Positions 38,949 through 44,160 of a stretch of 64,000 nucleotides of DNA are shown here, piece after piece. The first letter of the stretch is position 1; each line of letters opens with the position of its first letter. Source of the DNA: Nitrososphaerota archaeon (lineage in GTDB: Archaea > Thermoproteota > Nitrososphaeria > Nitrososphaerales > Nitrosopumilaceae). The stretch spans positions 30,027-94,026 of the forward strand of contig DAHUYT010000002.1 of NCBI GenBank assembly GCA_027315065.1, read 5' to 3'. Below the pieces are notes generated by a model that saw only the letters and a list, made by a program, of their open reading frames with translations, had not been told where the DNA came from and did no database searches. A program made the position numbers and the translations under genes.

Positions 38949-39110
38949 ATGTCAGTAGATGTTGTATGTGATAAATGTGGATCTAAAATAGCAAATATGC
39001 GTATGTTAAAGTCGATCAAGGATGTAATGCGACCATATGATAGTAAATGTCCATCATGCGGTCAAACACTGCTATCGTCAGAATTTACTGTAGATGTTCA
39101 AAAGAACTGA
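38949..39110 (+). CDS. 53-aa zinc-ribbon protein
   Basis: Manual translation MSVDVVCDKCGSKIANMRMLKSIKDVMRPYDSKCPSCGQTLLSSEFTVDVQKN*; absent from ORF track. Confidence 0.65.
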   Translation: MSVDVVCDKCGSKIANMRMLKSIKDVMRPYDSKCPSCGQTLLSSEFTVDVQKN

Positions 39111-39178
39111 TCTAAAAAGTTTGTGCATCGATCAAACTAGTCACAAATCTTATTTACCGATATCAAGTAGACTTTCTT

Positions 39179-41278
39179 ATGGAACTGAGTGAAGACTTTA
39201 GTGGTGATCAAAAGCGTGGAGGAATCTTACAGTCTGCATCTAAGCGAGTAAGAATGATCTTTTCTGTCATGGCAAGCCCTAACAGAATTGATATTTTGAG
39301 AATCTTAAACTCAAAAGGTCCACTTACATATTCAGAACTAAAGTCACTTGCTGGATTCAAATCAAAGAAAGAAAGCGGCAAGTTTGCATATCATCTTCGA
39401 AAATTATTACGTCAGTCTCTTGTGGCTCTAAACAAGTCTGAGAGAAGATACACCATTACAAATTTGGGTAAATTAGTCCTAAGTCTTGCTAGGCAGATTG
39501 AGGAACGCTCTATTATAGAAAGTGGTAAGATGTATGTGCGTACATCGCACGAATCTATAGAGGAATTTAACTCTCATAAAATAATTCAGTCTCTTGTTCG
39601 GGAAGGAAGTCTACCTCTTGAACTTGCACAGAAGATAACAGAGGAGGTTGAAAATCGCATATATAAATTCCAGACATCATACCTCACTTCTTCATTAATA
39701 CGCGAGATGGTTAATTCCGTCCTTTTGGAACAGGGTCATGAGGACTATAGGCATAAACTAGCACGATTTGGTCTTCCTGGATATGATATACATGAAATGC
39801 TGACTAATGTAGATGGCATCCATAACGGAGTAGAAGGCATGCTATTTAAGACAGGTCAAACCGTTTTTGGAGAGTATCTGGTATTAAACACATTGCCTAA
39901 AGATGTTGCTGATTCTCATCTTTCGGGAGATATTCATATTACAAACGCTGGTTTGTGGTCACTTCTTCCTGACACCGTATTTGTGAATATCAAGGAGTTG
40001 ATAGAAGACGGTATTGACCTAAGAGGCAAATTCTTGGGAGTAACAAGAAGGTCTGCTCTAAACTCTCTTGACGACTTGACCACTTCTCTTTCTATTATGA
40101 CATCACTTCTTATCAAGGAAGCCTCTCAGGAGGTTGTTATTGATGGATTGGTGGGATTATTACAAAAATATTCTAAAAATATGTCTGAAATTGAAGAAAA
40201 AATTACCAATTCTTTTGGTAACATATCAACTGCGCCTAAATATGGAAAGAGCGAAGCACTAGCATCGTTTAGAATCTCAATAGGCACAGAACCGAAAGTT
40301 GTTGGCTCTATTCTTGCTGCCTATAAAAAATATGTAAAATCTACACCTTTGCCATCTGTAGGCATCATTATAGATTATGAAAAAGGAAAGATTAACGAGT
40401 TCTCCGATATATTGTCTGGTATTATTGCACTAGGAGGGCGTATAATGTTCTCAAAGGGGCTGGCATCAAGCAAAGGCTTCTTTAAGATAGATGCAAAGAA
40501 CACTTCTATCACATCAATTAACTTACAATCTTTGTCAATCAATATGCCACGACTTGCATTTGAATCAAACAAAGACGAAACCTACTTTAGAGCAAGATTA
40601 GCGCTGTTAATGAAACCTGCTCTGGCAGCAATGTCAATACGAAAAAAGGAGATATCTGATCTCACTCGTAGAGGACTCAACCCAATACTTGCAAATAATA
40701 CGCAGTATATGCAAAAGGGTTCAGTTACACTAGTTGTTAATTTGCTAGGGCTCAAAGAAGCAGTTTATGGAATACTTGGTTATGAGAATAACAAGGCTGG
40801 ACAGGAAATTCTGGCAAAAGTTATAACTACCGCTATTGAGGTTGCGGCCAAGAAAGGAAAAGAGATGGGTGACAACGTTACAATTTCTATAACTGAAAGT
40901 GATGCATCTGCTCGCTTTTCTTCATTGGATGGTGAAAAGTACGGTAAAATGTCAATCCATACACACATAGAAGGTGAATCTTATTCGGAAGGAATTACTA
41001 TTGATGCTTCAGAAATTGATGGAATGACTCCCAAAAGTGAAAAAATAATTGAATCTACCAATTTCTCAAAGATGCTTAATGGCGGATTGCTAGTTCAACT
41101 CAAGATTCCAGACACGATGGATTCCTCAGGAATTAAGAAGGCAATAGAAAAAGCCGGAGAATTATTAGGTTCGTTCAGGCCAATCAAGAAGGTACCTATT
41201 TGTACCAATTGTGGGCTCAAAGAAGAAAAGATTACAGAAAAGTGTCCTGTCTGCAAGTCACCTTATATCATAGTATAG
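39179..41278 (+). CDS. HTH (ArsR-like) + ATP-cone + NrdD-like domain + C-terminal zinc-ribbon protein; putative nucleotide-sensing regulator
   Basis: N-terminal RIDILRILNSKGPLTYSELKSLAGF...FAYHLRKLLRQSLVAL wHTH; ATP-cone-like SHKIIQSLVREGSLPLELAQKITEEVENRI; NrdD-like SHLSGDIHITNAGLWSLLPD; C-terminal CTNCGLKEEKITEKCPVC with no RxxGY-type glycyl-radical motif. Confidence 0.7.
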   Translation: MELSEDFSGDQKRGGILQSASKRVRMIFSVMASPNRIDILRILNSKGPLTYSELKSLAGFKSKKESGKFAYHLRKLLRQSLVALNKSERRYTITNLGKLVLSLARQIEERSIIESGKMYVRTSHESIEEFNSHKIIQSLVREGSLPLELAQKITEEVENRIYKFQTSYLTSSLIREMVNSVLLEQGHEDYRHKLARFGLPGYDIHEMLTNVDGIHNGVEGMLFKTGQTVFGEYLVLNTLPKDVADSHLSGDIHITNAGLWSLLPDTVFVNIKELIEDGIDLRGKFLGVTRRSALNSLDDLTTSLSIMTSLLIKEASQEVVIDGLVGLLQKYSKNMSEIEEKITNSFGNISTAPKYGKSEALASFRISIGTEPKVVGSILAAYKKYVKSTPLPSVGIIIDYEKGKINEFSDILSGIIALGGRIMFSKGLASSKGFFKIDAKNTSITSINLQSLSINMPRLAFESNKDETYFRARLALLMKPALAAMSIRKKEISDLTRRGLNPILANNTQYMQKGSVTLVVNLLGLKEAVYGILGYENNKAGQEILAKVITTAIEVAAKKGKEMGDNVTISITESDASARFSSLDGEKYGKMSIHTHIEGESYSEGITIDASEIDGMTPKSEKIIESTNFSKMLNGGLLVQLKIPDTMDSSGIKKAIEKAGELLGSFRPIKKVPICTNCGLKEEKITEKCPVCKSPYIIV

Positions 41279-41502
41279 TCAGCATATACCAACAAATTCT
41301 TAATAAAAAATTAGAAAATATTGTTGAATTTGTTCACAATTTTTTACAGAATTCTTTTACGATTATATTAGTGCTTGATGATCTATTACCATGAAAATCA
41401 TAACGGTGTCAACAAAATTGATGCAAAGCTCAGTAATGGAAAAAAAAATTTTGCCGCAGACTTTATTTAACTCTCATTTGATACTGATACGGGGAGTATG
41501 AA

Positions 41503-44160
41503 ATGACAGATTTTTCACAAATAGAGAATTCGATCATTAATGTAAAGAAGCGTGACGGTCGAGTATCTTCGTTCCAGAAGGATAAAATTTCAAATGCGAT
41601 CTATAAAGCATTAGTAGCTCGTGGTAGACCAGATCATGGATCAGCAGATAAACTAGCAAATCGTGTTATCGAAAAACTTGTAACGCATGGTTATTCATCC
41701 TCAGAGTTACCAAGCGTAGAAGATGTTCAAGATATGGTAGAATCAACCCTAATTGATGAAGGATTAGGAGAGATCGCTAAAGCATACATATTGTATAGAC
41801 ATGAACGCAGAAGGGTACGAGAGGAAAAGACAAAGGTACTCGAATCTAAGACTCTTGATTCTGTTGCCAAGAAATTTGATCTTAACTGTCTCAGGGTTCT
41901 CGCATCTAGATATCTACTTAGAAATAACAAGGGTCAGATAACTGAAAGTCCAAGTGAGATGTTTGAAAGAGTTGCAATACTTGTTGGAATCTCTGATGTT
42001 CTAAAAGATCCATCTATCTTTAGTGTGGAGAGAGGTAGTGTTCAGAATACAGAGGAAGCAGAAAAATATCTAGACAAGCTGGATGACTTTAACTGCAAAT
42101 TCAAAATAGGAAAATATTACCTCAGTAAATATCACTTTAGGTCGCTCATACAACATTATATTGATCTAGCCAAACGGGGCCAGATGAAGGTTAATGTCAA
42201 AGAATTCCTCACAATGCTAGCAGCAAACAAATTCGAACAACATGCTGAGCGGATAGATGAATACTATGAAATGATGGCCTCTCAAGACTTTCTACCCAAT
42301 TCTCCTACAATGATGAATGCAGGAGCACGACTTGGACAACTCTCTGCCTGTTTTGTGCTTGCAATGCCAGATGACATGGAAAAAATAATGAAGTCATCTT
42401 CTGATGCTGCTTTGATATTCAAATCAGGAGGTGGTGTTGGCATCAATTACTCTGATTTAAGACCAGAAGGAGATATGGTTGCATCTACATCGGGAGTCGC
42501 ATCAGGCCCAGTTTCTTTCATGAATATAATTAATACTGTTACAGAAGTGGTCAAGCAGGGAGGCAAACGAAGGGGGGCAAACATGGGAATTATAGAATCG
42601 TGGCATCCAGATATTGAGAAATTCATCACTGCTAAAACAAAGCCAGGTGTACTGGAGAACTTTAATGTAAGTGTGGGAGTCTGGGAAGACTTTTGGGAAG
42701 CGCTGGTAAATTCACAAGATGGTAAATACACACTACTAAGTCCTCTGAGCAAGGCACCAGTCAGAGAAGTGAATGCGCATCATATCATTGATTTGATAGC
42801 ACTCTCTGCATGGAAGAGTGCTGAACCTGGATTGATATTCTTTGATATAATCAACAAATACAATGTATTTGCAAAGGCTCGTGGTACACCGCTGCGTGCA
42901 ACAAATCCTTGTGGGGAACAAAGCTTATATCCATACGAGTCCTGCAATCTGGGATCAATTAATCTCTCTAACTTTGTAAAGAGAAAGGCAGACGGACAAT
43001 ACGAATTTGACTGGCAAAGATATGAGGAAGCAATTAGAAAAACAACCAGATTTCTAGATAATATAATTGATGTCAACAACTATCCGATTTCAGAAATAGA
43101 TCAGGCATCTAAGGACTCGAGAAGAATAGGACTTGGAGTAATGGGAGTTGCTGACCTATTATTCAAACTAAGGATTCCATACAACTCGCAAGAAGGATAT
43201 GAATTTCAGGAGAAATTAGCCGAGGCATTGACCTATTATTCTATGGAAGAAAGCATTGCGCTTGCAAAAACACGAGGACAGTTTCCATTATGTTCAAAAA
43301 CAGAATATCCAGAAGGAAAGATTCCAGTAGCAGGTTATTATGAAAAACCAAAGAATACTAGTACTTATGACTGGGATGCGTTGATAGCAAAGATCCAAAA
43401 GCATGGAATCAGAAACGTTCTAACTACCACAGTAGCACCTACTGGAACCTTGTCCATGATCGCAGATTGTTCCAATGGAATGGAACCAATGTTTGCACTT
43501 GTCTTTGAGAAACGAGTAACTGTGGGAAGATTCTTCTATACAAACAAGATATTTGAATCAGTTCTCAAGGAACATGGTCTATACAACGATCAGTTACTGG
43601 AAAAGATTGCAAATAACTATGGCTCAATAAAAGGAATACCAGAGATCCCAGAATGGATGCAGAAAATATTTGTTACAGCAATGGATATTCACTGGACAGA
43701 TCATCTAATGGCACAGTGTGTATGGCAAAGATGGATTGGAAATGCTATAGCAAAGACAATCAATATGCCAAACGATGTATCATCTGATGATGTAAAGGCG
43801 GCATATCTGTTAGCACATGAACTTGGACTAAAGGGAATAACTGTATACAGAGACGGTTCAAGACATGAACAGGTGCTTCACATGACAGGCGATAATATAC
43901 AAAAGACATTTCAAGTTACCCCGAGCATGTATGTAACTGATTACATTTCGAAAAATATAACAAATGCTTATTTGAGAAGCCAAGTGGAAAGAGCGCTCCA
44001 GATCAAGATCCCAGAAAACGGAGTCATACAATCACAACCAAAACTTACGGCCGAACAAATTGAAGAGATACTATGTCCGACATGTAAAAATGCACTTGTG
44101 TTTGCAGAAGGTTGCAACATCTGCATTGAATGTGGGTATAGCGGATGTACATCTGGTTAG
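41503..44160 (+). CDS. nrdJ: Adenosylcobalamin-dependent (class II) ribonucleotide reductase with ATP-cone
   Basis: N-terminal ATP-cone INVKKRDGRVSSFQKDKISNAIYKAL; LPNSPTMMNAGARLGQLSACFVL, NPCGEQSLYPYESCNLGSINLS, TTVAPTGTLSMIADCSNGMEPMFAL; C-terminal Cys-rich tail. Confidence 0.95.
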   Translation: MTDFSQIENSIINVKKRDGRVSSFQKDKISNAIYKALVARGRPDHGSADKLANRVIEKLVTHGYSSSELPSVEDVQDMVESTLIDEGLGEIAKAYILYRHERRRVREEKTKVLESKTLDSVAKKFDLNCLRVLASRYLLRNNKGQITESPSEMFERVAILVGISDVLKDPSIFSVERGSVQNTEEAEKYLDKLDDFNCKFKIGKYYLSKYHFRSLIQHYIDLAKRGQMKVNVKEFLTMLAANKFEQHAERIDEYYEMMASQDFLPNSPTMMNAGARLGQLSACFVLAMPDDMEKIMKSSSDAALIFKSGGGVGINYSDLRPEGDMVASTSGVASGPVSFMNIINTVTEVVKQGGKRRGANMGIIESWHPDIEKFITAKTKPGVLENFNVSVGVWEDFWEALVNSQDGKYTLLSPLSKAPVREVNAHHIIDLIALSAWKSAEPGLIFFDIINKYNVFAKARGTPLRATNPCGEQSLYPYESCNLGSINLSNFVKRKADGQYEFDWQRYEEAIRKTTRFLDNIIDVNNYPISEIDQASKDSRRIGLGVMGVADLLFKLRIPYNSQEGYEFQEKLAEALTYYSMEESIALAKTRGQFPLCSKTEYPEGKIPVAGYYEKPKNTSTYDWDALIAKIQKHGIRNVLTTTVAPTGTLSMIADCSNGMEPMFALVFEKRVTVGRFFYTNKIFESVLKEHGLYNDQLLEKIANNYGSIKGIPEIPEWMQKIFVTAMDIHWTDHLMAQCVWQRWIGNAIAKTINMPNDVSSDDVKAAYLLAHELGLKGITVYRDGSRHEQVLHMTGDNIQKTFQVTPSMYVTDYISKNITNAYLRSQVERALQIKIPENGVIQSQPKLTAEQIEEILCPTCKNALVFAEGCNICIECGYSGCTSG

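Follow-up and report, generated by a model that had tools for sequence, protein, structure and literature searches.

The 64,000-nt stretch of archaeal DNA analysed here (the window, to whose positions all coordinates refer) encodes a 699-aa protein (39179..41278, + strand) that combines a winged helix-turn-helix (wHTH) domain, an ATP-cone, a core related to the class III anaerobic ribonucleotide reductase (RNR) NrdD and a C-terminal Zn ribbon. Its domain architecture, pattern of conservation and gene neighborhood suggest that this degenerate, wHTH-fused NrdD is likely to be a nucleotide-sensing transcription regulator of RNR genes, derived from a class III RNR. The next gene is nrdJ (41503..44160, + strand; 885 aa), which codes for a B12-dependent class II RNR with an ATP-cone of its own. 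The host is close to Candidatus Nitrosotalea, with 82-94% identity to the nearest named orthologues. In the host genome nrdJ, present in one copy, is the sole RNR found, and the NRDD family has no second match besides the regulator candidate.

The wHTH occupies residues 20-105 (39236..39493, + strand), with the recognition helix region KESGKFAYHLRKLL, and is recovered by the Pfam models DUF7347 (residues 27-101, 2.4e-10, 41 bits against a cut-off of 27.6) and HTH_20 (residues 31-83, 9e-8, 32.4 bits against a cut-off of 27). It is followed by the ATP-cone at residues 117-196 (39527..39766, + strand; conserved columns VRTSxxxIEEFNxxKI), which matches PF03477 over residues 118-190 with an E-value of 4.1e-10, above the curated cut-off. 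The KRDG of classical ATP-cones reads RTSx in this version, and its nucleotide preference may therefore differ. The cysteine-free NrdD-like core (residues 197-670; 39767..41188, + strand), in which NLPRLAxES-type and RFxxLDxEKYG-type motifs of NrdD survive, is supported by alignment, by structural similarity and by a Pfam NRDD match above the curated cut-off, which spans residues 418-694 with an E-value of 3.9e-25. The protein closes with a Zn ribbon of the form CxxC-x10-CxxC (41189..41275, + strand; Cys 675, 678, 689 and 692), after which the glycyl-radical loop is absent. In an NCBIfam scan the match to the NrdD model TIGR02487 reaches just 80.6 bits, far below the equivalog cut-off of 326 bits. 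The N-terminal wHTH, the ATP-cone-like segment, the NrdD-like region, the terminal ribbon and the ATP-cone-bearing nrdJ as the next gene, all read from the sequence in the original prediction, are borne out by these results. A defence role was considered and rejected, its signal being confined to weak Csa3 matches obtained via the HTH. Just 5' of the regulator lies a 54-aa ORF (38949-39110) with two CxxC pairs, a small zinc ribbon protein that is retained in Nitrosotalea-like relatives.

An AlphaFold model of the regulator built from 44 orthologues (mean pLDDT 83.6, pTM 0.71) contains both the HTH and the NrdD barrel expected from the original prediction. Most of the core is modeled at a pLDDT of 90 or above and the HTH at 85-90, with the ATP-cone weaker at about 58-86. 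The HTH comprises helices at residues 20-31, 34-46, 51-58 and 63-78 and wing strands at 82-85 and 90-93, and the core forms the 10-stranded barrel of RNRs and glycyl radical enzymes in the class III topology. In a Foldseek search against the PDB the first 36 matches are all class III RNRs (TM 0.56), the best being the S. thermophilus NrdD (E 1.1e-21); these are followed by class I and II RNRs and PFL-like glycyl radical enzymes.

The catalytic roles of C175, C384 and G681 in the E. coli NrdD are well established, the two cysteines corresponding to C79 and C290 of the T4 enzyme. We aligned 102 homologues of the window protein with the E. coli NrdD, one phage NrdD and four archaeal NrdDs as references. 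The window protein has four cysteines, all in the terminal ribbon, and Thr in the column of C175; its segment SHLSGDIHITN falls in register with GDIHYHD of the E. coli NrdD, which upholds the proposed alteration of DIHIHD to DIHITN. As had also been proposed, it stops where the glycyl-radical motif of NrdD would stand, ending 7 residues past the last ribbon Cys and before an RVCGY-type glycyl loop. The losses extend across the family: Cys occupies the C175 column in 0/102 homologues (Thr in 62/102), any Cys lies within 8 columns of C384 in only 9/102, and the G681 column has Gly in 2/102 and no residue at all in 78/102, the complete catalytic set being found in 0/102. The ribbon cysteines are retained in 92-93 of the 102, and the NrdD core motifs NLPRLAxES and RFxxLDxEKYG in many. 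The claim of catalytic deadness thus holds family-wide for both the catalytic Cys and the radical Gly; the identification of the window protein as an NrdD without catalytic capacity, fused to a wHTH, is almost certain, and, failing on these residues, the regulator is not a class III RNR. A tail past the ribbon occurs in none of the homologues from the order to which the window belongs, and a decayed one is kept in 12 of the 31 relatives outside it, as in FSRISAKYLPAPFWNPAQ compared with WSRVTGYYQAVSGWNKGK of its neighbor; together these sequences show a visible decay series. Five shortened homologues of 545-602 aa (L048, L049, L050, L061 and L065) have lost the ribbon and keep the wHTH and ATP-cone; their NrdD part is further reduced, and NrdJ is encoded elsewhere in their genomes.

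Homologues, mostly full-length and with the same architecture, are present in 139 of the 151 genomes of the order (103/106 of the good genomes), and the ORF is hence real and not a chance reading frame. In a sample of the phylum 219/300 genomes have a match, some of the weak ones possibly being ordinary NrdDs or ATP-cones. In a quick tree, which has several long branches, all 71 regulator-type sequences fall on one side of a branch with an SH-aLRT value of 99, next to true archaeal NrdD, indicating that the family has a single origin and is the sister group of the latter. Among 44 diverse sequences the mean pairwise identity is 0.64 in the wHTH and 0.67 in the ATP-cone, which has 15 invariant columns, versus 0.32-0.34 in the NrdD core, and the recognition helix is strongly conserved throughout the phylum. 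The parts under constraint are those expected to contact DNA and nucleotide, namely the wHTH and the ATP-cone. Several marine orthologues of the Nitrosopumilus type (L017, L019 and L110 among others) bear an Asp/Glu-rich N-terminal extension before the HTH, such as MKMSDEELELDLEGDLDADVDDDLD, which is possibly self-inhibitory or DNA-mimicking. The single remote match on a viral contig (L204; 31% identity over residues 120-292, the ATP-cone and the start of NrdD) is likely a viral NrdD, and a viral origin was rejected. We found no description of the family in the open-access papers searched; an earlier mention in subscription papers or preprints is possible.

Synteny with RNR genes, a check named in the original prediction, proved to be near-total in the order and to survive replacement of the RNR itself. 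The regulator lies directly upstream of an RNR on the same strand in 113 of the 122 copies from genomes with a listed RNR match. Among the order-wide regulator matches (n=136), 113 are directly 5' of an RNR match, 9 have the RNR on another contig (several of them at contig ends), 13 have no listed RNR match and 1 is further off. When copies without a listed RNR match were fetched with their flanks (L081-L090), NrdJ adjoined each of them. One genome (G082) is a clear exception to this adjacency, and another (G336) has only a shortened copy that does not adjoin NrdJ. The adjacent reductase is far from constant: the downstream NrdJs fall into PRK08332-, PRK08665- and PRK07562-like subfamilies that are mutually 26-36% identical, and at four loci outside the order (L043, L045, L047 and L070) the downstream gene is a true NrdD. 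Within a single family, L081 and L082 have regulators 49% identical and NrdJs only 29% identical; between L081 and L086 the corresponding values are 45% and 66%. Mapped by parsimony onto the regulator tree, the RNR type has switched about 9 times, a count that weakly supported branches could lower. This repeated replacement of the RNR beside a fixed regulator points to a functional tie between the two; hitch-hiking of an unrelated gene fails to explain synteny kept through such replacement. Two further features of these loci are a short ORF (101-108 aa) that separates the true nrdD from the regulator in L043, L045 and L047, and downstream nrdJ genes of 1090-1563 aa at L085, L090, L100, L102, L107, G061:C6 and G400:C122. 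These oversized genes probably carry inteins, and the NrdJ matches of G061 and G400 are split at the same site, at about residue 470.

The intergenic region upstream of nrdJ contains a candidate operator, a 50-bp element (41382..41431, + strand; consensus CCAnTATGAAnTTCATnGTAGCGGTGTCAAnATTATTGAACCAAA) that is conserved in Nitrosopumilaceae, where 34 non-redundant sites place it between -85 and -100 relative to nrdJ. It includes two imperfect inverted repeats, ATGAAAATCAT and GTGTCAA-N5-TTGANNC, and ends about 30 bp 5' of the TATA-like box of nrdJ (CTTTATTTA; 41461..41469, + strand), which aligns with TTATAT of other genera; a conserved Shine-Dalgarno-like GGGGAG (41491..41496, + strand) precedes the ATG. 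The window site scores 38.5 against the position weight matrix (PWM), its own score being partly built in as one of the 34, and the next best site in the window scores 9.9. Columns conserved at 90% number 22 upstream of nrdJ versus 14 in the control region upstream of the regulator, whose conservation is only moderately lower. The element was found only in Nitrosopumilaceae and was not seen in other families of the order. Given its position, which is what links the two, the regulator may bind this element. An alignment of 40 upstream regions from Nitrosopumilaceae yields the nearly invariant GTCACAAATCTTATTTA (39140..39156, + strand) before the regulator itself, which we take as its own BRE/TATA-like promoter or as an operator overlapping that promoter. 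The regulator having a promoter of its own and, in the PWM scan of the window, no upstream copy of the 50-bp element, autoregulation through the element is not expected. A 36-aa ORF (41391-41501; MKIITVSTKLMQ...RGV) overlaps the conserved element, ends at the nrdJ start and is open in all Nitrosotalea-like relatives. It was rejected as a gene, with its variable columns spread evenly over the codon positions (17/16/15 of 35) and the frame missing in other genera, and is a by-product of DNA conservation.

Among the other readings of the regulator, the one that survives best, though we regard it as unlikely, retains the same nucleotide input and assigns it a wider regulon in replication, the cell cycle or nucleotide metabolism, with nrdJ as one target among others. 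Outside the order, most of the fetched loci have no RNR next to the homologue, NrdD and/or NrdJ being encoded elsewhere in those genomes, and the phylum-wide conservation of the recognition helix is likewise compatible with targets beyond nrdJ. However, within the order the RNR neighbor is near-constant even as its type changes, and no second promoter in the genome carries a convincing copy of the nrdJ element: a genome-wide pattern search gave 8 matches versus 4 for the reversed control, the other 7 lying mostly inside genes, and further genomic targets of the element were accordingly rejected. Slightly less probable again is a role at the protein level, in which the regulator would serve the reductase as a pseudo-subunit, for instance as a partner of NrdJ or NrdD, and would have little or no affinity for DNA. 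Dead paralogues often control active relatives via protein contact, and both the retention of the whole RNR fold and the adjoining RNR genes would suit such a role; yet a constant interface is missing, as the neighboring RNR varies in class and subfamily (class II enzymes 26-36% identical, or class III), and the HTH is, together with the ATP-cone, the most conserved part of the protein. A still-active class III RNR using other residues has the NRDD match and fold in its favor but is scarcely credible, given cysteines confined to the ribbon, the absence of the glycyl loop, hosts that are aerobic ammonia oxidizers and the activase NrdG exceeding its cut-off in 0/101 genomes, which have just weak radical-SAM matches.

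For the preferred reading, a transcription regulator of RNR genes, a mechanism can be proposed in which both the binding of DNA at nrdJ and its control by ATP and dATP are inferred. The NrdD core dimerizes in all class III RNRs, and in the regulator it would form a dimer that pairs two wHTH domains. The ATP-cone, lying between wHTH and core, would take up ATP or dATP and thereby change the angle of the dimer or its oligomeric state. In one nucleotide state the protein would bind the element with the inverted repeats (41382-41431), and in the other it would release it, such that nrdJ transcription would track the dNTP pool. The parent enzyme family offers a precedent for such a switch, as the ATP-cone of the P. 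copri NrdD shifts the dimer-tetramer balance between ATP and dATP (PMC11226230). Activation at low dATP appears slightly more likely than repression at high dATP, since some 30 bp separate the element from the TATA-like box downstream of it. On a broader scale, it is in our estimation about as likely as not that the order and the Bathyarchaeia-like lineages of its phylum share a phylum-wide family of RNR regulators that arose from a dead class III RNR, senses nucleotides via up to three inherited pockets (the ATP-cone, the effector site and the pseudo-active site), sets the transcription of whichever reductase class is present and replaces NrdR in these archaea.

Should the regulatory role hold, this would be the first case known to us of an RNR turned transcription factor. 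The host group is among the most abundant archaea on Earth, and the exchange of one unrelated reductase for another while the regulator stays in place amounts to a rare natural experiment in regulator-target linkage. Ordered from true NrdD to homologues whose glycyl loop has decayed and on to those that lack it, these proteins would illustrate how a sensor can arise from the enzyme whose products it monitors. Few archaea have NrdR (PMC9110341), and it exceeded its cut-off in 1/101 of the genomes that we scanned; the regulator is a direct, testable candidate for the control of dNTP synthesis in archaea without it.

Among known systems the closest functional parallel is NrdR, the bacterial RNR-specific repressor (TIGR00244; PMC9110341, PMC12176259), which likewise joins an ATP-cone to a DNA-binding part, has a four-Cys ribbon, occurs in genomes with any RNR class and targets RNR promoters, as is inferred for the regulator. 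NrdR, however, measures about 150 aa, and its Zn ribbon, which binds DNA, is N-terminal and precedes the ATP-cone, whereas the regulator has a wHTH for its predicted DNA binding, a C-terminal ribbon inherited from NrdD and a dead RNR core of 500 residues that has been kept. The 699-aa protein has no match to TIGR00244 in the NCBIfam scan, and this, together with the difference in architecture, agrees with the earlier proposal of an NrdR analogue of different origin: the regulator would work like NrdR but is not a member of that family and is of separate origin. By tree and fold its nearest kin is the class III anaerobic RNR NrdD (PF13597, TIGR02487; P. copri NrdD, PMC11226230), with which it shares the ATP-cone, the 10-stranded barrel and the ribbon of the glycyl radical domain, and from which it differs in lacking the thiyl-radical Cys, the second Cys, the radical Gly and NrdG and in its additional N-terminal wHTH. 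The ArsR-like and DUF7347 archaeal wHTH regulators have the HTH in common with it, above the Pfam cut-offs, but are small, and none of the matched models combines this domain with an ATP-cone and an RNR core. A final parallel is provided by trigger enzymes and other enzyme-derived regulators such as PutA, NadR and BirA, in which, as predicted for the regulator, an enzyme fold serves both to sense the pathway it belongs to and to bind DNA; these retain catalysis, whereas in the regulator catalysis has been lost and the fold is that of an RNR.
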